Shown: positions 912 to 27,208 of the stretch, piece after piece
Position numbering within the stretch: position 1 is the stretch's first letter
How the letters are laid out: every line of letters begins with the position of its first letter
From: a virus
IMG/VR virus record: IMGVR_UViG_3300034280_000170
Location: 1 to 27,208 of that record
Length of the DNA: 27,208 nucleotides
Reading direction: 5' to 3' (one strand)
Position numbers and translations under genes: made by a program
The notes under the pieces: model-generated
What the model was told of the DNA's origin: nothing
The model's input: only the letters and a program-made list of their open reading frames with translations
Database searches by the model: none

Positions 912-1023
912 GAAGCCCGCGAACTTCCTGAAGTACATCCGGGAATGGAATTCTATCACTGGAACGCCGTTTGAGGCCATTATTAAGGCCGTGACGGACA
1001 CCGAAACCCGTTTGAACTCATGA
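799..1023 (+). CDS. Small helix-turn-helix DNA-binding protein (74 residues)
   Basis: The segment LSGAAEAIGVTVQAVRSW, about residues 18-35, is a clear helix-turn-helix of the Cro/YdaS kind: a helix with AA, the turn G-V-T and the recognition helix QAVRSW. The rest is helical. The start is taken at the ATG at 799, with ATG 826 as alternative; an upstream in-frame TTG at 790 is less likely. The stop overlaps the start of the replication initiator as ATGA, so the two are probably co-translated. It may regulate early transcription or assist at the origin. There is no partner repressor or divergent promoter as in a lysogeny switch. Confidence 0.65.
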   Translation: MNPRTPLELMLLTHYRTLSGAAEAIGVTVQAVRSWSYEKPANFLKYIREWNSITGTPFEAIIKAVTDTETRLNS

Positions 1024-1721
1024 CCTCCGGACGCTGGATTCCGGAGCGTATATGGACCTTAAAAGGCCTCTCTATCTTGGAGAGGCTTTTTTTGGCCGAG
1101 GTCGCAGGATTCGTAGATACCGGAAAGGAGTGTTTCGCCAGTAACGAATACTTCGCCGAACGTCTGGACTGTTCCGAGGTCCAAGTACGGAAGATGATAG
1201 TACACCTTTTGGAGACCGGATACCTCGACCGCGACGGTTACGGACGGACTCGAAAACTTGCTATTTCGGAACTTGTTCCGTCTGGAACTTGTTCCATTCA
1301 GAACAAAAGAAGTTCCAAAAGGAACAAGAACTTGTTCCAAAAGGAACAACTAGATGTTCCAAATGGAACACATACTAAACTAGTAGATAGAATAAAGAGT
1401 ACTAGTATAGATATTAAGAAAGGGAAGCCTGATATTTTGATGCCTTTTGAAGGTTCGGAGTTTGTCGAACTCTGGGCCTCGTGGAAAGAATACAAGCGGA
1501 CCCATTTCAAATTCTCGTTCCGTACTTTGCAGTCGGAGCAGGTAGCGTTACACCACCTCCAAAAAATATCAAACGGCGACTATGAAACAGCGCGAACAAT
1601 TATCGGTACAGCCATCGCAAACGGGTGGCGCGGTCTCTATCCCTCGAATACAGGAACTCGTAAAAGCGGGGCCGGAGGAAATGCACCGGAATGGCACAAG
1701 CGTTTCACGGGCGAACTCTGA
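1020..1721 (+). CDS. Phage replication initiator (winged-helix, lambda O / replisome-organiser type), 233 residues
   Basis: Residues 8-80 form a winged helix-turn-helix of the HTH_36 type seen in phage replication initiators, with a recognition region around CSEVQVRKMIVHLLETGYL at 51-69. Residues 83-137 are a polar Lys/Asn/Gln linker whose DNA carries five GTTCC-N4-GGAAC palindromes followed by an AT-rich stretch. Residues 145-207 are a compact C-terminal domain (FVELWASWKEYK, then GWRGLYP) of the kind that contacts a helicase or loader. The layout parallels lambda O, whose origin lies inside its own gene between the DNA-binding and partner-binding domains. The start is coupled (ATGA) to the HTH gene. 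No polymerase or helicase is encoded here, so it presumably recruits host enzymes. Confidence 0.8.
   Translation: MTSGRWIPERIWTLKGLSILERLFLAEVAGFVDTGKECFASNEYFAERLDCSEVQVRKMIVHLLETGYLDRDGYGRTRKLAISELVPSGTCSIQNKRSSKRNKNLFQKEQLDVPNGTHTKLVDRIKSTSIDIKKGKPDILMPFEGSEFVELWASWKEYKRTHFKFSFRTLQSEQVALHHLQKISNGDYETARTIIGTAIANGWRGLYPSNTGTRKSGAGGNAPEWHKRFTGEL
1268..1440. other. Probable replication origin: iteron array plus AT-rich unwinding region
   Basis: Five 14-base inverted repeats GTTCC-N4-GGAAC (the second ends AGAAC) lie at 1275-1288, 1291-1304, 1312-1325, 1334-1347 and 1356-1369. The last four centres are 21-22 bases apart, two helical turns, so bound proteins would sit on one DNA face. An extra GGAAC half-site lies at 1268-1272. 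From about 1370 to 1440 the sequence becomes markedly AT-rich and contains ACTAGTA twice, at 1379-1385 and 1401-1407, again 22 bases apart. The palindromes are seen directly. Their role as initiator sites and the AT-rich part as unwinding element are inferred from their place inside the initiator gene. Confidence 0.75.
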
Positions 1722-2199
1722 AAGCCCGGAACTCCTACGGGCCTTTCTGGGGCGCGAAATCGTACGACTGTCTCAAGCGGTAAAAGTCAATAACACGTTC
1801 TCCAGTGAGGAGGACGTACTGACTGCGGTAGAAGACATTATCGACGAATTCCGGACCCTGAAAATCGAAGAGGTAGTACACGTCTTCACCCAGATACGAA
1901 GAGGGAAGATAGACCTTTACGGGCGGCTCGATACGCCGACCCTTTGCGGGGCCTTGAGAGACTACGACGTGAACACGGCCTGCGAATTCCGCGAAAAGCA
2001 CTACAAAGAGGCCCTAACCACCGAACCCCTTTCTCCTTTGTTTGGGGACATCCTCAAAAGCCTTCCAGAGGTTACGCCTACGTTCGCCGAAATCATGCAA
2101 AGACGGCCTAAATTGACCCCCGAACAAAGGGCGGAAATACACGCACGCGATAAAGCACGCAATGGCTACAACACGGGCACGACTGGTGGCGACGCTTGA
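1681..2199 (+). CDS. Replication-partner protein, possible helicase-loader analogue (172 residues)
   Basis: The frame is open from 1582, but the ATG at 1681 gives a modest 41-base overlap with the initiator and a sensible N-terminus, so I prefer it. Residues 20-110 are helical and include EEVVHVFTQIRRGKIDLYGR, followed by CGALRDYDV. This pattern recurs in a family found beside initiators in Bacteroidota phages and mobile elements, whose function is not known to me. The C-terminus is basic and polar (RPKLTPEQRAEIHARDKAR). Position directly after the initiator suggests helicase loading or another replisome function, which is inference. There is no Walker motif, so it is not a DnaC-type ATPase. 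Confidence 0.65.
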   Translation: MHRNGTSVSRANSESPELLRAFLGREIVRLSQAVKVNNTFSSEEDVLTAVEDIIDEFRTLKIEEVVHVFTQIRRGKIDLYGRLDTPTLCGALRDYDVNTACEFREKHYKEALTTEPLSPLFGDILKSLPEVTPTFAEIMQRRPKLTPEQRAEIHARDKARNGYNTGTTGGDA

Positions 2200-4027: not shown

Positions 4028-4044
4028 CCCCTAACCAAGGAAAC

Positions 4045-4248
4045 ATGAATAATTACATTTTGTTGGAACTGCTCGGACATAAGGACGCGCGACTGGTGTA
4101 CGTCAACCTCGACACCGTTACCCATGTACTCGAGGAACACACCCTACGCAGTACGGGTTCTAAACTCTGTTTTACCGACGGAACGAAACTCGTAGTAAAG
4201 AAGGATATTCACTCACTCGCGGAGGCTATCGCACGCCGCGGAGAATAA
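4045..4248 (+). CDS. FlbD-like small protein, 67 residues
   Basis: The layout is that of small FlbD-family proteins: a strand with a residue pair (YILLELLGHKDARLVYVNLD), VTHVLEEHT, then a second strand block FTDGTKLVVKK followed by a helix LAEAIARRG. The original FlbD is a small protein of flagellar operons with unclear biochemistry, and homologues occur in phages. I call only fold-level similarity. An intergenic gap of 17 bases containing an A-rich stretch (AAGGAAAC) precedes the ATG. Confidence 0.5.
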   Translation: MNNYILLELLGHKDARLVYVNLDTVTHVLEEHTLRSTGSKLCFTDGTKLVVKKDIHSLAEAIARRGE

Positions 4249-5109: not shown

Positions 5110-5342
5110 GTTACACGAAAGAAGAACGCCACCAGATAGCGGCCCAAATACTCAAGTACGCACGGGACGGTAAGATTCATTCGTACGTACCCAGACCGAC
5201 GTACCACCTAGATAGCCAGTACACGGAAAGAATCCGACCGGCCGACGCGGTAGACCGTGCATGGCTCGAAGTAGTAGCGAGGGACGTAATGGGCGAAATT
5301 TGGCACGATGAAGAATACTGGACCACAACGGGCAAGGCTTGA
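5106..5342 (+). CDS. Hypothetical protein, 78 residues
   Basis: The start is coupled to the membrane peptide through ATGA. The product is polar, with a helical N-terminus (KEERHQIAAQILKYARDGK), a Tyr/Pro-rich middle and an acidic helical C-terminus (VDRAWLEVVARDVMGEIWHDEEYW). It overlaps the methyltransferase gene by 35 bases. I do not recognise the family. Confidence 0.6.
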   Translation: MSYTKEERHQIAAQILKYARDGKIHSYVPRPTYHLDSQYTERIRPADAVDRAWLEVVARDVMGEIWHDEEYWTTTGKA

Positions 5343-6573
5343 GACCCTCAAGCCAAACCCGAAGAACCCGCGGGTAATCAAGGACGACAAATTCCAGAAA
5401 CTCGTTCAGTCGATTAGAGCGTTCCCGCAGATGTTAGAGGTACGCCCTATCGTCTGCACGCCGGACGGGGTTGTATTGGGCGGAAATATGCGTCTACGGG
5501 CTTGCAAAGAAGCCGGACTGCGGGAGGTTCCCGTTCACGTGGTTTCGTGGCTCGATTCCCAGCAAGAAGAATTCATAATTAAGGATAACGTAGGGTACGG
5601 AGAATGGGACTGGGACATCCTCGCGAATGAGTGGGACGCAAACCAACTCGAGGACTGGGGACTCGATGTGTGGACTCCTGAACCGGAACCCGAAGAAGGT
5701 TTGACGGACCCGGACGAAGTGCCTAGCGTCCCCGAAGAACCGAAGACCAAACCGGGAGACCTGTACATCCTCGGAAAACACCGTCTGCTCTGCGGAGATT
5801 CTACAAACGCGGAACACGTGGCTCGGTTAATGGATGGACAGAAAGCGGACTTGTGCTTTACATCTCCTCCATACGGGCAACAAAGAGACTACGGAGCAGC
5901 AAAGGAAGCGGTCCAAGACTGGGACGCGTTAATGTTGGGAGTATTCGCAAATCTTCACATGAAACCAGACGGTCAAGTTCTTGTAAACTTGGGGCTTATC
6001 CATCGAGATAACGAAGTACAGTTATACTGGGAGAACTGGATAGAGTGGATGCAGTCGGAAGGCTGGCGAAGGTTTGGCTGGTATGTGTGGGATTCAGGTT
6101 CAGGAATGCCCGGGGATTGGGCCGGCCGATTTGCGCCGTCGTTCGAATTCGTTTTTCACTTCAATAAAAAAGCGAAGAAGCCGGAGTATATCATTGAAAA
6201 GAAAGTTGAAAGTATTAAGGTAAAAAAAGGCAAGGGTATACGACAAAAAGACGGCAAAGTGCGGGCAATTACAAGCGGACATAAAGGGTTAAACCCGATG
6301 AAGATTCAAGATTCCGTCATTCGCGCAAATCGGGAAACGCGAGAAATTCGCTCCTCGCATCCAGCCACCTTCTCGGTAGAGTTCGCAGAAGTATTTATCC
6401 AGTCGTGGCCCGGTTTAATTTATGAGCCGTTTTTAGGTTCCGGTACTACTATGATAGCCTCGGAGCAAAACGCATCAACTTGTTACGGAATGGAACTTGA
6501 CCCCAAATACTGCGACGTAATTGTAAAGCGGTGGGAGGACTTCACGGGAAAAAAGGCAGAACTCGTTAGTTAA
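5308..6573 (+). CDS. ParB-like domain fused to a DNA methyltransferase (N4-cytosine/N6-adenine type), 421 residues
   Basis: Residues 10-95 match the ParB/Srx-like N-terminal domain (LKPNPKNPR, then GGNMRLRACKEAGL at 58-71). An acidic linker follows. From 150 there is an amino-methyltransferase with TSPPYG at 185-190 (motif IV) and FLGSGTT at 375-381 (motif I, cofactor binding), so motif IV precedes motif I as in beta-class enzymes; a variable target-recognition region lies between. It probably methylates phage DNA to evade host restriction. No cognate endonuclease is adjacent, so it is an orphan. DNA from about 5930 to 6500 is AT-richer than either end, suggesting the catalytic and target parts were exchanged. 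TSPPY does not by itself separate N4C from N6A activity. Confidence 0.85.
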   Translation: MKNTGPQRARLETLKPNPKNPRVIKDDKFQKLVQSIRAFPQMLEVRPIVCTPDGVVLGGNMRLRACKEAGLREVPVHVVSWLDSQQEEFIIKDNVGYGEWDWDILANEWDANQLEDWGLDVWTPEPEPEEGLTDPDEVPSVPEEPKTKPGDLYILGKHRLLCGDSTNAEHVARLMDGQKADLCFTSPPYGQQRDYGAAKEAVQDWDALMLGVFANLHMKPDGQVLVNLGLIHRDNEVQLYWENWIEWMQSEGWRRFGWYVWDSGSGMPGDWAGRFAPSFEFVFHFNKKAKKPEYIIEKKVESIKVKKGKGIRQKDGKVRAITSGHKGLNPMKIQDSVIRANRETREIRSSHPATFSVEFAEVFIQSWPGLIYEPFLGSGTTMIASEQNASTCYGMELDPKYCDVIVKRWEDFTGKKAELVS

Positions 6574-6575
6574 CT

Positions 6576-6920
6576 ATGAACTCGACAATTTCGGCGCCTA
6601 AAAAGGTCGCCATGTTGGAAGCCCTCGAGAAGTCTTTGGGTATCGTTTCGACAGCGGCGAAGGCCGCGAATGTAGACCGACAGAGTCACTACAACTGGAT
6701 GAAAGACGACCCCGCCTACAAAGCGGCGGTAGAGTCCATTCAAGAAAGTGTAATCGACTTTGCAGAATCGCACCTCTACAAACTCGTAAAAGAGGGGAAC
6801 CCCGCCGCGACTATCTTCTACCTGAAGACCAAAGGAAAGAAGCGCGGATATATCGAGCGGCAGGAAATCGAGGTAACGGAACGCTCGCCCCTTTCATGGC
6901 TTAACGGCGAAGGCCTTTGA
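6576..6920 (+). CDS. terS: Terminase small subunit, 114 residues
   Basis: The N-terminal half has the helix-turn-helix typical of small terminases: KVAMLEALEKSLGIVSTAAK, then the recognition helix VDRQSHYNWMKDDPAY. Residues 55-90 are helical and suited to ring assembly, including IDFAESHLYKLVKEGNPAA and IFYLKTKGKKRGY, which recur in this family. It should bind the packaging site and guide the large subunit. Its TGA overlaps the TTG start of the large subunit. The size is usual for the family. Confidence 0.85.
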   Translation: MNSTISAPKKVAMLEALEKSLGIVSTAAKAANVDRQSHYNWMKDDPAYKAAVESIQESVIDFAESHLYKLVKEGNPAATIFYLKTKGKKRGYIERQEIEVTERSPLSWLNGEGL

Positions 6921-8068
6921 AACTCGCGAAGACGTACTACGACGTACGCAACTGCAAGACCCGGATACAGGTACACCAGGGAGGTACCCGTTCGGGCAAA
7001 ACGTATTCTATCCTCCTTTCGCTGGTCGAGTTCTGTTACAGGAACCCAAACGGCGGGGCGGTACTCACCATTTGCCGAAAGACCTTCCCGGCGCTCCGCG
7101 CTTCCGTTATGCGGGACTTCTTTGAGATACTCAAGCGCGAAGGAATCTACACGGAGGTAAACCACAATAAGAGCGACGCCACCTATATCCTCGAGGGGAA
7201 CCTGATAGAATTTATCAGTATTGACCAGCCCCAGAAGATACGCGGACGCAAGCGTGACCTACTTTTCATAAACGAGGCGAACGAACTAAACCTCGAAGAC
7301 TTCAGGCAGTTACTTATCCGAACCACGGGTAAGGTACTTTTGGACTACAACCCCTCCGATGAATTCCACTGGATATACGACCACGTAATACCTCGAGAAG
7401 ATGCCACGTTCTTTCAGTCGACGTTCCGAGACAATCCCTTCCTTGAACCGTCCCTCGTTACCGAGATTGAACGGCTACAAGTGGCCGACCCGAACTACTG
7501 GAGAATCTACGGACTCGGAGAGCGGGGACAATCCCGAAGCACCATCCTCACCCACTGGAGCCAAACCGAAACCATAGACCCGCGGTTTAAGCTGGTAGCG
7601 TACGGCCTCGACTTCGGGTACACGAACGACCCGACGGCCTGCGTAGCGGTCTACTCGGACGGGGAAGCGTTCCTGCTCGATGAAATACTATACCGGAACG
7701 GCCTTTCGAATAGGCAGATATTCCAACTGCTCGAATCGGAGGTAGGGAAGAACACGGTAATCGCAGACAGCGCCGAACCGAAGTCTATCGACGAACTACA
7801 CGGCTACGGGATGAACGTACACCCAGCGCGCAAGGGTCCCGACTCCGTACGCGCGGGAATTCAGTTCTTTCACTCGAAGCCTTTGGCTGTTACGTCCCGT
7901 TCGCTGAACCTGATAAAGGAACTACGGAACTACAAGTGGAAGGAGGACAAAAACGGGAAGAACCTCAACGAACCTGTAGACGCGTTTAACCACGCTATCG
8001 ACGCGGCGAGGTATGCGGCTATGTTCAACCAGAGCAACCCGAACTACGGGAGGTACCGGATAGGATGA
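6917..8068 (+). CDS. terL: Terminase large subunit, 383 residues
   Basis: This packaging motor has a Walker A motif GGTRSGKT at 22-29, a Walker B motif LLFINEAN at 115-122 and a C-terminal RNaseH-like nuclease with Asp232 (YGLDFGYTND), Asp284 (VIADSAEP) and Asp355/Asp362 (VDAFNHAIDAARYA). It belongs to the Terminase_3/PBSX group. Translation starts at TTG 6917, overlapping the small-subunit stop as TTGA; no ATG is available before the conserved N-terminus. At 383 residues it is slightly compact but complete. Whether packaging is headful or cohesive-end cannot be told from sequence alone. Confidence 0.95.
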   Translation: MKLAKTYYDVRNCKTRIQVHQGGTRSGKTYSILLSLVEFCYRNPNGGAVLTICRKTFPALRASVMRDFFEILKREGIYTEVNHNKSDATYILEGNLIEFISIDQPQKIRGRKRDLLFINEANELNLEDFRQLLIRTTGKVLLDYNPSDEFHWIYDHVIPREDATFFQSTFRDNPFLEPSLVTEIERLQVADPNYWRIYGLGERGQSRSTILTHWSQTETIDPRFKLVAYGLDFGYTNDPTACVAVYSDGEAFLLDEILYRNGLSNRQIFQLLESEVGKNTVIADSAEPKSIDELHGYGMNVHPARKGPDSVRAGIQFFHSKPLAVTSRSLNLIKELRNYKWKEDKNGKNLNEPVDAFNHAIDAARYAAMFNQSNPNYGRYRIG

Positions 8069-18211: not shown

Positions 18212-18798
18212 TGGAAATTTTCGAACTCGTAATCGACGAACAAGCCGACGCGTACGGCATTCAGGCAATTTCTTTGGTGGCAGAACCTGCTATCGAGGCG
18301 GACTGGGTCGCCCTTTCTACCCAGTACAATTTCCAAACGACCGACAAAGAACGGCGCGTGGTTATGGGGCCTGCTCTGATTCCAGACAAACCAATTTACC
18401 GGCGGAAAGACGAACAGGAGTTCCATATCTGGTTCTCGAAGGAGACCGTACGCAAAGCGATGGAACTCTATTTTAAGGCAGGCAACCAGAACCGCGCTAC
18501 CCTCGAGCACGAAGTCCCCTTAAATGGAACCACGGTTATCGAATCGTGGATTGTCGAAGGAGAACAGGATAAGAGCCGCATGTACGGTATGAATGTTCCA
18601 CGTGGAACGTGGATGGTTTCCATGAAAATCGATTCAGACGCTATCTGGGAAGAATGGGTAAAAGAGAACCGAATTAAAGGCTTCAGTATCGAAGGGATGT
18701 TCACGCGGAAGGTCGACCTGTCGGCCGATTCGTTCCTAGGAGAACTCGAAGAGATTCTAGAGGACGTCCGCGCGGAGGTGGCTTCTGTCAAGAAATGA
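18211..18798 (+). CDS. XkdF-like prohead serine protease, 195 residues
   Basis: The sequence follows the XkdF/peptidase S78-like pattern of prohead proteases: GIQAISLVAEPAIEADWVAL near 16-35, PDKPIYRR and FHIWFSKETVRKAMELY near 71-87, catalytic His100 in LEHEVPLNG and catalytic Ser159 in IKGFSIEGMF. It should trim scaffold and capsid proteins during head maturation. The C-terminal helix (LGELEEILEDVRAEVAS) may bind scaffold. The start forms TAATG with the tape-measure stop, and scaffold and capsid genes follow directly. Confidence 0.8.
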   Translation: MEIFELVIDEQADAYGIQAISLVAEPAIEADWVALSTQYNFQTTDKERRVVMGPALIPDKPIYRRKDEQEFHIWFSKETVRKAMELYFKAGNQNRATLEHEVPLNGTTVIESWIVEGEQDKSRMYGMNVPRGTWMVSMKIDSDAIWEEWVKENRIKGFSIEGMFTRKVDLSADSFLGELEEILEDVRAEVASVKK

Positions 18799-22267: not shown

Positions 22268-22643
22268 CGGTAACCAGAACATCTACCTCACGCTTCAGGA
22301 CGCGGGGCGGGATTACACGTACACCCATTACCTGTTTAAGCTGGTGCACCGGATGACCCTCGAAGATTTCTATTTCGTGGGATACGTGATTAACGACAAT
22401 CCGAGGTACACAAAGATTCAGGTAGCTACGAACGCGACCACGACGAATAACGTCCTTTTGACGGAGACCGGGGATTACGATTATTTCGTCTATGCCCAGA
22501 ACTCAAGTACCAATAAAGACCCAAATAACGCGGCGGTTGTAGCTTTAATCGAGCAGGGTACCTTGCGCGTTCCGGGGGCGGCTATCGTAAGCCTCCCTAC
22601 TATCACTCTCGAAGATAACGTACTGTTCTATGGCAACGAATAA
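22245..22643 (+). CDS. Hypothetical virion-associated protein, 132 residues
   Basis: The start lies 23 bases inside the end of the second glycosyltransferase gene and the stop overlaps the portal gene by 14 bases. The product is beta-rich with many Asn, Thr and Tyr (NIYLTLQDAGRDYTYTHYLF, then YIVINDNP-like and DYDYFVYAQNSSTNKD stretches). Similar small beta-sandwich proteins occur near portals and fibres of Bacteroidota phages, possibly head decoration, but I cannot assign it. Asn- and Thr-rich surfaces could be sugar acceptors for the neighbouring enzymes, which is speculation. Confidence 0.6.
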   Translation: MLYLNSNSGNQNIYLTLQDAGRDYTYTHYLFKLVHRMTLEDFYFVGYVINDNPRYTKIQVATNATTTNNVLLTETGDYDYFVYAQNSSTNKDPNNAAVVALIEQGTLRVPGAAIVSLPTITLEDNVLFYGNE

Positions 22644-24282
22644 AATCGAAAACGTCCAACTCAAGACGTACGAAGCTAGGTCCTACCGCGAACACGCGAA
22701 GGGGGACTGGGTCAAGTACGGGGACGACAACCTATTCCCTAACTATCTGGTAGACCTGTACCATTGCAGCCCGACGCATAACGCGTTATGTACGACTATC
22801 GGGATGATGATTTACGGGGAGGGGTTCGAGCCCGCGGACCTGAACGCGAAACTGCTCGCGGCACAGTGGGACCTGAATTCGGAACTCCGGAAATGCGCTA
22901 TCGACCTGAAGATACAGAACGGTTTCGCTCTCGAGGTTAACTGGAGCGTAGACCGGACGGTAATTGCAAACATTAGCCACCTCCCGTTCGAGAATCTACG
23001 TTCCGGGGTCTGCGACGAAGAAGAGGTAGTACAGTGGTATTACTACTCGCGGGACTGGAGCGACTCCAGACAGGAACCTATGGCCATAGCCCGCTTTAAC
23101 CCAGAGACGAAGAACGAGTACCCTACGCAAGTTCTCTATGTTAAACCCTTCTCGGTAGGGTCTTACTACTACCCGAAGCCCGACTATATCGGGGCAATTA
23201 ACTATATCGAACTTGAAAAGGAAATTTCGGTATTCCACATAAACAATATCAAGAACGGTCTTTCTCCTTCGTTCGCGATTCATTTTAAAAACGGCATCCC
23301 TTCCGACGAAGAGCGCCGCGAAATCCGTCGGGATATCGAAAGGCAGGCCGCCGGAGCACAGAACGCGGGTAAGTTCTGGATGACCTTTTCCGATGAACCG
23401 GACCGCGCCCCGACTATCGAGGCGTTTACCCTTTCGGACGCGGATAAGCAGTACCAGTTCCTTTCGGAGGAAACCACCGCGAAGATTATGATAGGCCACC
23501 GCGTCACAAACCCGCAGATGTTCGGGGTTATGGTCGCGGGGAAACTAGGGGGCGGAACCGAATTAGAGGCCTCTATGGACCTTTTCGAGCAGCAGGTAAT
23601 CAACCCCTACCAGCAGGTAATCGAGGAGGCCGTTAAAACGCTTCTAAACGCTTCGGGAGTGGATTCTAGTTTGGTAGAACTTTCGGAAGAACACAACCTC
23701 GACGGGGTAGCGGACTACCTCGAAGGATTAGGGGAGCAGATGGGTGATGACTGGGAGTTAATCGACGAACGAGAAGTAGACTACGACCGCGAAGAAGAGT
23801 ACGACGCGCTTTGGACGTTTGCGCGTACGCTCCGGAATAACCCGTCGGCAAAGAGTTCGCAGGATAACGAAATAGTTCGGGTACGTTACGCGTACGCTCC
23901 TACGACCCTCGCAGACGGACGGAGCCGCGATTTCTGCACGCGTATGATTCAGGCCATGAAGGTCTACCGGAAGGAGGATATTATGCAGGCGGGTAGTCAA
24001 GCGGTGAATCCCGGATGGGGACCGAACGGAGCCGACACGTACGACATTTGGTTATACAAAGGCGGCGGGTCCTGTCGCCACTTCTGGATGCGCCAAACGT
24101 ACCTGAAGCGTAATAACGACCTCGTTTCTGTCAACGAGGCGAAGCGTCTGATTCAGGCCCTCCCGCCGGACGAACGCAAGAAGAACAAGCTAGAAGAAAA
24201 TGACCGCAAGGTGGCCCAGCGCCCCCGCGACATGAAGAACAGAGGTTTCCTGAAGCCCCGCAAATTCACAACTCCCCGATAA
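22630..24282 (+). CDS. Portal protein, 550 residues
   Basis: The N-terminus contains DWVKYGDDNLFPNYLVDLYH and SPTHNALCTTIGMMIYGEGF, recurrent in portals of Bacteroidota phages. The middle has the clip and stem segments including EEVVQWYYYSRDWSDSR and FHINNIKNGLSPSFAIHFKN. RVTNPQMFGVMVAGKLGGG near 297-315 and EASMDLFEQQVINPYQQVIE follow, typical of the portal wing. The C-terminal 150 residues are less conserved and basic. It forms the dodecameric DNA gate at the head vertex. Its distance from the terminase genes is unusual. Confidence 0.85.
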   Translation: MATNKIENVQLKTYEARSYREHAKGDWVKYGDDNLFPNYLVDLYHCSPTHNALCTTIGMMIYGEGFEPADLNAKLLAAQWDLNSELRKCAIDLKIQNGFALEVNWSVDRTVIANISHLPFENLRSGVCDEEEVVQWYYYSRDWSDSRQEPMAIARFNPETKNEYPTQVLYVKPFSVGSYYYPKPDYIGAINYIELEKEISVFHINNIKNGLSPSFAIHFKNGIPSDEERREIRRDIERQAAGAQNAGKFWMTFSDEPDRAPTIEAFTLSDADKQYQFLSEETTAKIMIGHRVTNPQMFGVMVAGKLGGGTELEASMDLFEQQVINPYQQVIEEAVKTLLNASGVDSSLVELSEEHNLDGVADYLEGLGEQMGDDWELIDEREVDYDREEEYDALWTFARTLRNNPSAKSSQDNEIVRVRYAYAPTTLADGRSRDFCTRMIQAMKVYRKEDIMQAGSQAVNPGWGPNGADTYDIWLYKGGGSCRHFWMRQTYLKRNNDLVSVNEAKRLIQALPPDERKKNKLEENDRKVAQRPRDMKNRGFLKPRKFTTPR

Positions 24283-24994: not shown

Positions 24995-25070
24995 GTTCAA
25001 GTGGCTCGGAAGTATCGGGGGAGTTGGAGTTATTATAGCGGGCTATCTGAAATCCCTTTTCAATGCGTGA
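24888..25070 (+). CDS. XhlA-like holin-associated membrane protein, 60 residues
   Basis: Residues 1-38 form a charged coiled coil (LQEIREGLARIETKLDFHKE) and residues 40-57 a hydrophobic segment (LGSIGGVGVIIAGYLKSLF). This is the arrangement of XhlA-type haemolysin/holin-accessory proteins of phages. It immediately precedes and overlaps the endolysin by 8 bases, so a role in membrane permeabilisation is likely. The start ATG at 24888 is the only one giving the complete coiled coil. Confidence 0.65.
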   Translation: MDALQEIREGLARIETKLDFHKESLDKHEKKIENLEFKWLGSIGGVGVIIAGYLKSLFNA

Positions 25071-25503
25071 ACTCAAGTATCTCGTTCTTCATTGTTCTGC
25101 TACTCCGGTTACTATGGACGTGGGGGCGGCAGAGATACGTAAATGGCACAAAGGCAAAGGGTGGAAAGACATAGGCTACCACTTCGTAATCAAGCTTTCG
25201 GGTAAGCTGGAATACGGCCGCCCTTTACAGCAAATCGGAAGCCACGTACTAGGATACAACCGCGCCAGCGTCGGTATCTGTTACGTCGGGGGCATGGAAG
25301 ACAAAAAGCCAAAGGATACTATGAACGCGAAACAAGAAAAGACGTTCCGTGACCTCGTGGCGACTTTGCGGAATAGGTTCGGCCCTATGGAGGTTTGGGG
25401 GCATAACGACTTCACAGACGCGAAGGCATGCCCTTCGTTTAAGGTCGGAGAGAAGTTCGAAGACCTCAAGCTAGACGTAAACGCACCCCTCCCCGACGAA
25501 TGA
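25063..25503 (+). CDS. Endolysin: N-acetylmuramoyl-L-alanine amidase, T7-lysozyme type (146 residues)
   Basis: Zinc ligands and catalytic residues of the amidase_2/T7 lysozyme family are present: His10 in LVLHCSAT, Tyr39 in IGYHFVI, His114 in VWGHNDF, Lys121 and Cys123 in DAKACPSF. The KxC spacing is as in T7 lysozyme. The length is close to T7 lysozyme (about 150). It cleaves the bond between muramic acid and the stem peptide. There is no signal peptide, so release depends on a holin. It is coupled to the XhlA-like gene upstream and the phosphoesterase downstream (ATGA). Confidence 0.9.
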   Translation: MRELKYLVLHCSATPVTMDVGAAEIRKWHKGKGWKDIGYHFVIKLSGKLEYGRPLQQIGSHVLGYNRASVGICYVGGMEDKKPKDTMNAKQEKTFRDLVATLRNRFGPMEVWGHNDFTDAKACPSFKVGEKFEDLKLDVNAPLPDE

Positions 25504-26943: not shown

Positions 26944-27183
26944 ATGGAAGACTACACTCTGATTCTGGTCGAGGACGCGCAAATCCAGCACCTCGAGTTC
27001 GAATGCCACTACGAGGCCTACTCGGATGACGAAGACGGCTCATGGGCTGGAGACTGCGTAGACGTTCAAAAGGTGTATCTGTGCTTTAAGGGTGCACGGG
27101 TAGACGTGACGGAAGTAGTAACCAGTTCTGCGGAGTTCCGCGATATGGTTCGCGAGCGGGTAATCGACAACAAAGGGTACTAA
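26944..27183 (+). CDS. Hypothetical acidic protein, 79 residues, first gene of the early operon
   Basis: The start is the ATG after the promoter and leader; an upstream in-frame start at 26893 lies inside the promoter and is rejected. The product is acidic and strand-rich in its first half (YTLILVEDAQIQHLEFECHY, then an SDDEDGSW loop) and ends with a helix (AEFRDMVRERVIDNKGY). It might be an early host-takeover protein, by position only. It continues as the partial copy at the window start, and its stop forms TAATG with the 54-residue gene. Confidence 0.75.
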   Translation: MEDYTLILVEDAQIQHLEFECHYEAYSDDEDGSWAGDCVDVQKVYLCFKGARVDVTEVVTSSAEFRDMVRERVIDNKGY

Positions 27184-27208
27184 TGCGCGAACTAAAGGAG
27201 GATGTGTG
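27068..27208. repeat. Terminal direct repeat, right copy
   Basis: It matches positions 1-141 at 138 of 141 positions; the differences are in the last 15 bases, within the first codons of the 54-residue gene (CTC to CTA, CCG to GAG). After removing one copy the genome is about 27,067 bp. Confidence 0.9.
27183..27208 (+). CDS. 5' fragment of the 54-residue hypothetical gene (second copy)
   Basis: ATG within TAATG, followed by codons for MRELKEDV before the window ends. It is the redundant copy of the gene that starts at 116, and differs from it by Glu in place of Pro6. Confidence 0.8.

Follow-up and report, generated by a model that had tools for sequence, protein, structure and literature searches.

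A probable replication origin formed by phased palindromes inside the initiator gene of an uncultured tailed phage

It has long been known that in lambdoid hybrids the N-terminus of the O protein and its origin travel together. O binds DNA with its N-terminal part, to which a C-terminal part is joined. The gene of its partner P follows directly, and the origin lies within the O gene itself as a set of semi-palindromic iterons, 20-24 bp apart and flanked by an AT-rich region (annotated iteron starts 39034, 39054, 39078 and 39101; spacings 20/24/23). In the six-iteron version found in Stx phages, the number of iterons sets the length of the linker (PMC7466680). A comparable arrangement has been described for pSK41-type RepA, where the origin is located centrally in rep, the linker is origin-encoded and both the N- and the C-terminal domain are DnaD-like (PMC5703833). 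In pPR9 a segment of around 500 bp with the N-terminal domain and the origin has been swapped for one with a phage-type pfam13730 (HTH_36) domain, and the swap gave compatibility with pSK41 (PMC5703833). Initiator-nested origins are thus established for lambda and the pSK41-type plasmids, with pPR9 as a natural exchange of N-terminal domain and origin, and given these precedents and the lambdoid hybrids the locus described here is of a known kind. It comprises an array of palindromic boxes and adjoining AT-rich DNA that very probably constitute the theta-type replication origin of a phage, lying inside the coding region for the phage's own initiator. This reading is based on the identity of the protein, the fact that the array exceeds chance, the conservation of its architecture while the core changes, the exchange of reader and boxes, the adjacent melting minimum and the recurrence of the same design in distant phages.

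The window (the whole stretch of DNA that was analysed, 27,208 bp) represents an entire IMG/VR virus record and encodes a tailed phage, as indicated by genes for terminase (6576-8068), portal (22630-24282) and amidase (25063-25503). The two ends of the record, 1-141 and 27068-27208, are identical at 138 of 141 positions, which would be expected of a circular genome or of a terminal repeat with strain variation. The genes and coding segments of interest are the following:

1020 to 1721, plus strand: initiator gene, 233 amino acids (HTH_36 and phrog_678 matches, AlphaFold2 model)
1176 to 1217, plus strand: codons of residues 53-66, the predicted recognition helix (AlphaFold2 secondary structure)
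1582 to 2199, plus strand: gene after the initiator, in the place of lambda P, overlapping the 3' end of the initiator gene by 140 bp in another frame

The identity of the protein as an initiator follows from the match to Pfam HTH_36 (PF13730; E=1.4e-7, 31.6 bits, above the curated cut-off of 25) together with the match of residues 25-221, counted as full-length, to the family phrog_678, 'replication initiation O-like' (E=7e-12). O-like PHROG families were also matched by the initiators of 13 out of 14 relatives. A search with Pfam RepA_N (PF06970) gave no match to the initiator at E<=1, and the family profile yielded only weak matches among the sequences of solved structures, the best being a MarR-type regulator. 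In the AlphaFold2 model (single chain, medium confidence; pLDDT of the domains ~70-82) a winged helix is predicted around residues 9-82, with wing strands at 69-72 and 79-82 in addition to the recognition helix, and a three-helix C-terminal domain at residues 146-200. The linker in between (residues 90-137), for which boxes 2-5 and the AT-rich DNA provide the codons, is predicted to be disordered (pLDDT ~30). A Foldseek search of the PDB with this model put the N-terminal domains of staphylococcal plasmid RepA proteins on top, including a Rep-DNA complex, followed by the N-terminal domain of DnaD (E 6e-3 to 5e-2; TM for RepA, normalised by target, ~0.46), which is suggestive of an N-terminal fold nearest to those two. 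The matches within the viral library included phage helix-turn-helix, replisome organizer and replication initiator proteins. No fold match was assigned to the three-helix C-terminal part in the Foldseek search.

The product of the gene at 1582-2199 has relatives (63-99% identical) in 19 loci, which in the loci checked are located behind an initiator, and it is a candidate for the partner of the initiator. Searches gave no Pfam or NCBIfam match of weight and no fold match for this product; a remote relative in locus L019 (22% identical) matches DUF6633. The remote initiator of that same locus has an N-terminal part of another type and carries ACGCGTGCTTGACGCG-type repeats, 11 bp apart, in two sets (4039-4065 and 4208-4234), one within the N-terminal part and one within the linker.

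The preliminary description of the sequence had claimed five GTTCC-N4-GGAAC palindromes in the DNA coding for the linker. All five were recovered, four exact and one with a single mismatch (no strand is assigned to the boxes):

1268 to 1272: position S0, a lone right half-box GGAAC, where other clades have a fuller box
1275 to 1288: box S1, GTTCCGTCTGGAAC, exact; its codons also specify VPSGT, which belongs to a VPxGxC motif (alignment)
1291 to 1304: box S2, GTTCCATTCAGAAC, one mismatch
1312 to 1325: box S3, GTTCCAAAAGGAAC, exact
1334 to 1347: box S4, GTTCCAAAAGGAAC, exact, within a full 18-bp palindrome, TTGTTCCAAAAGGAACAA, at 1332-1349
1356 to 1369: box S5, GTTCCAAATGGAAC, exact

The centres of S1 to S5 are separated by 16, 21, 22 and 22 bp, in agreement with the 21-22 bp claimed earlier for the last four. 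At S0, none of the 7 outer positions is paired in the window, versus 4-6 in the relatives L009, L028 and L034. Elsewhere in the window, copies of a single N5-Nx-N5' palindrome number at most two per 173-bp stretch, compared with four in the array. Since the residues themselves already favour box-like DNA, resampling of synonymous codons for the same protein is the comparison that matters: the maximum in 20,000 trials was three exact palindromes versus the four observed, and five palindromes at <=1 mismatch turned up in 3 of the 20,000 trials. Conservation at the codon level points the same way. When the window was compared to L009 at identical residues, the exact codon was kept in 27 of 29 cases within the array but in 36 of 73 cases across both folded domains (p=1.6e-5). 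Against this, L009 and L028, whose boxes differ, showed no significant excess of codon conservation in the array (p=0.31). The resampling and the comparison of the window with L009 support the conclusion that the array exceeds what chance or constraint on the protein would produce.

Scanning with the initiator and with the product of the next gene brought up 14 more initiator genes belonging to this group; no relative was confirmed in contigs of bacterial genomes. Within this set, the window included, four classes of boxes can be discerned. The palindrome TTGTTCC-N4-GGAACAA is present in the window, L001, L002 and L009 (the latter 52-56% identical), GTTCA-N4-TGAAC in L028 and L030-L033, and TTGCGC-N6-GCGCAA in L034-L036, while L003-L005 have boxes TTGTATA...AGAACAA in 22-bp direct order, in which only the outer TTGT/ACAA is symmetric. 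A comparison of linker DNA among homologous initiators had been proposed earlier, and it made clear that the position and the 21-22-bp periodicity of the array are retained while the core of the box differs. The two arms change in step, as GTTCC becomes GTTCA where GGAAC becomes TGAAC, and both arms read GCGC in the L034 clade. The spacings over S0-S5 are 16/16/21/22/22 in the window, L009 and L028 and 16/16/22/22/21 in L034, whereas the direct boxes of L003, spaced 22/22, are half-palindromic only. L003-L005 are shorter by 21 bp, which is close to one box period, and the absence thus leaves both reading frame and phase intact. Across the group the helical phase is similar but imperfect. Box S1 lies off the common helical face, since its distance of 16 bp to S2 corresponds to about 1.5 turns; considering that it is half a turn out of phase, is degenerate in two of the box classes and overlaps the VPxGxC motif, S1 may be less important than the other boxes. 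The residues of the linker shift with the core of the box (VP to VQ in L028, where GTTCC has become GTTCA), and this, in combination with the predicted disorder, supports the earlier suggestion that they are a by-product of the iterons.

The DNA next to the array stands out by its low stability:

1370 to 1430: proposed DNA unwinding element (AT content, duplex stability, conserved ACATACTA and TACTA repeats); no strand assigned

The AT content over 1370-1440 is 72%, compared to 48% for the genome. Nearest-neighbour energies placed the least stable duplex of all 27,208 bp here, whether calculated over 40 bp (1381-1420), 60 bp (1361-1420) or 80 bp (1339-1418), which makes the case for an AT-rich neighbour stronger than the preliminary description had it. 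All seven relatives tested likewise have the least stable stretch of their loci at the equivalent place, beside the boxes, and ACATACTA occurs directly 3' of the last box in all classes. TACTA repeats follow each other at exact 12-bp steps in L009 (from 10674) and L034 (from 2961), with four copies, and partly in L028; in the window (1373 and 1400) and in L003 TACTA occurs twice, 27 bp apart. Two ACTAGTA motifs 22 bp apart had been pointed out before, and they are indeed there, at 1379-1385 and 1401-1407, as the only plus-strand copies in the record. The pair is, however, retained only in the close clade, whereas the TACTA repeat is conserved more widely, and we dropped the assumption that the 22-bp pair is important because it is absent outside that clade.

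A comparison of two closely related classes over around 2 kb revealed that the differences between them are concentrated in a single segment:

1166 to 1395, plus strand: exchangeable specificity block, codons 49-126 (fixed differences between two close classes)

This block of around 230 bp contains the turn of the HTH, the recognition helix, the wing, the box array and the start of the AT-rich region. When three phages of the GTTCC class were set against three of the TTGTATA class, around 40 of the 43 or more fixed class differences fell within 1166-1395 and two outside (positions 601 and 1905). The differences in the array follow from the way in which the groups were defined, but this does not hold for the 12 fixed differences in the codons of the recognition helix and the wing: with the array excluded, these 12 lie in 95 bp, versus 2 in around 1750 bp of flanks (Fisher p=1.4e-14). 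The class-specific residues in the ordered domain and at its edge are D50T, V54I, T66A, A81D and L85Q, all in or beside the recognition helix and the wing. The informative sites of the array all represent a single split, to which nearly all of those in the recognition-helix segment conform as well, while the flanks show many conflicting splits and therefore recombine freely. In another clade, the identity of L009 (as L018) to L028, L030 and L033 drops to 72-87% over gene positions ~20-500, with flanks mostly at 82-98%. The loci in which the exchange was observed are the window (1166-1395), L015-L017, and L018, L028, L030 and L033. Judged from these alignments, with small samples of three versus three and one versus three, the data from both clades support an exchange in which the recognition helix and the wing move with the array as a single block. 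Neither the same phage group nor this exact block exchange was found in the open-access literature. One may tentatively speculate that origin specificity constitutes a small swappable module, that the block of around 230 bp converts the replication type, with the five substitutions accompanying a change of the preferred box from TTGTTCC to TTGTATA, and that such changes were selected for escape from origin interference by co-infecting relatives or satellites, although we consider this scenario less likely than its negation.

Binding, dimerisation, opening, helicase loading and the start of replication at the array together form the process that we infer, with the steps of binding, opening and loading modelled on lambda (PMC7466680) and pSK41 (PMC5703833). 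Dimers of the N-terminal winged helix would bind the palindromic boxes. Boxes S2-S5, being two helical turns apart, would allow the dimers to stack on roughly one face and form a nucleoprotein complex, which may strain and open the adjacent least stable DNA, around 1370-1430. The C-terminal helical domain, possibly in concert with the protein encoded by the next, overlapping gene, would bring the host helicase; a scan of early genes recognised no known helicase or loader. The linker would act as a flexible tether between the domains, with residues that are mostly set by the boxes and the AT-rich DNA. The nesting keeps reader and boxes together, so that recombination can swap specificity as one block. 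The GC skew of the record, proposed earlier as a check, has no clear turning point near the array and is uninformative as an origin marker, given that nearly all genes are on one strand, which masks the signal.

Where palindromic boxes belong to a winged-helix protein they are typically operators, and those of the array could in principle serve only the control of transcription of the initiator gene or of genes downstream. Any protein bound at the array would indeed affect transcription through the gene. Nevertheless, the array is located around 250 bp inside the gene, no promoter-like match was found nearby on the coding strand, the array adjoins the melting minimum of the record, and the equivalent place in lambda is occupied by known origin iterons, which together make a role as operators alone improbable. 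The inverted repeats might alternatively act as hairpins in RNA or single-stranded DNA, for translation, termination or an RNA-primed origin. RNA of the array folds better than shuffled sequences (z -6.2 in the window, -7.1 in L009, -3.5 in L028 and -4.5 in L034), and the fact that both arms vary together would fit such a role. However, stable stems are absent from L003-L005, which nonetheless keep the 22-bp periodicity (z -2.1, due for the most part to a single leftover site), the arms that pair in the predicted folds differ from clade to clade, and hairpins need neither one shared core per phage nor phasing. A scan against Rfam gave no match. Because the class of L003 retains the period without stems, this explanation was rejected as very improbable.

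A by-product of selection on a low-complexity linker protein would be harder still to reconcile with the data. The resampling of synonymous codons often yields one to three near matches, as the residues VP, GT, SS and NG already fit the boxes, but the freezing of codons between the window and L009 is confined to the array, the residues change along with the box core and the linker is predicted to be disordered, so that we attach hardly any probability to protein selection as the source of the repeats. The last alternative is a role of the array in partition or packaging, as a parS-like or pac site. The TGTTCC/GGAACA arms recall bacterial parS, and 5308-6573 encodes a fusion of a ParB_N domain with a DNA methylase of the N6/N4 type. 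The core of parS is CACGTG, however, and the boxes have AAAA, AAAT, GTCT and ATTC at their centres; moreover, the cores of the other clades are unlike parS and the gene for the small subunit of terminase (6576-6920) is located away from the array. A site of this kind was rejected because the cores do not fit, and its probability is close to nil. A lone exact GTTCCACGTGGAAC within a structural gene, at 18595-18608, resembles a parS site with a CACGTG centre but is single.

A replication origin remains the preferred reading, and its design can be compared to that of several known systems. The resemblance to lambda concerns the in-gene iterons beside an AT-rich region, the two-part initiator and the partner gene directly after it. 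In this sense the earlier label 'lambda-O-like' is appropriate for the design. Kinship is not supported: the window initiator belongs to HTH_36 and not to Phage_rep_O, the core is different, the next gene is not recognisably P, and lambda O could not be aligned. Phage_rep_O (PF04492) gave no match to the window initiator at E<=1, whereas the L028 protein reached 0.056 and lambda O itself 5.7e-36, and profile comparison revealed no kinship to lambda O (hhalign probability 0.1). The initiator thus appears to work like lambda O, with homology between the two unsupported at the level of sequence.

The design recurs in Pseudomonas phages Cruim01, Skulduggery and HU1 and in Oceanospirillum phage GJ44, whose initiators were found by protein similarity alone. 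These have a related N-terminal domain and linker iterons 20-23 bp apart (20/22/23 in Cruim01 and Skulduggery, 22/23 in HU1 and 23/23 in GJ44), and their repeat score was matched by none of the codon shuffles (100 per gene). The gene that follows carries an annotation as DnaC-like loader, AAA ATPase or helicase in three of these four phages. They differ in that the matched part is 28-35% identical, the cores are other ones (e.g. TATTCGGAA) and the repeats are mostly direct instead of palindromic. The recurrence in such distantly related phages suggests that periodic linker DNA in the genes of winged-helix initiators can be used to locate origins in many unannotated phages. For the present group of uncultured phages the array provides a ready candidate for the origin, and the box types form an unusually clean natural series of four on one initiator scaffold, including a near-identical pair that is five residues apart in the DNA-binding domain and its edge. 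With this series one can ask by experiment how the specificity of a winged-helix initiator is altered while its origin is preserved, and for what reason origins stay within the genes of their initiators.

The RepA_N initiators of pSK41 and pTZ2162 (PDB 4pql, 4pt7, 4pta and 5kbj) provide the best fold matches for the model; the difference is that they belong to plasmids and not to a phage, that the window initiator is without a Pfam RepA_N match and that the fold match is suggestive (E 6e-3). With pPR9 the locus shares the HTH_36 family and the logic of block exchange. In pPR9, however, the whole N-terminal domain was changed, between distant replicons, whereas here a block of around 230 bp starting inside the HTH was exchanged, as far as the alignments indicate, between otherwise near-identical phages. 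The particular value of the locus lies in its box types, which form a fine-grained series on a single scaffold, and in the shortness of the exchanged block.
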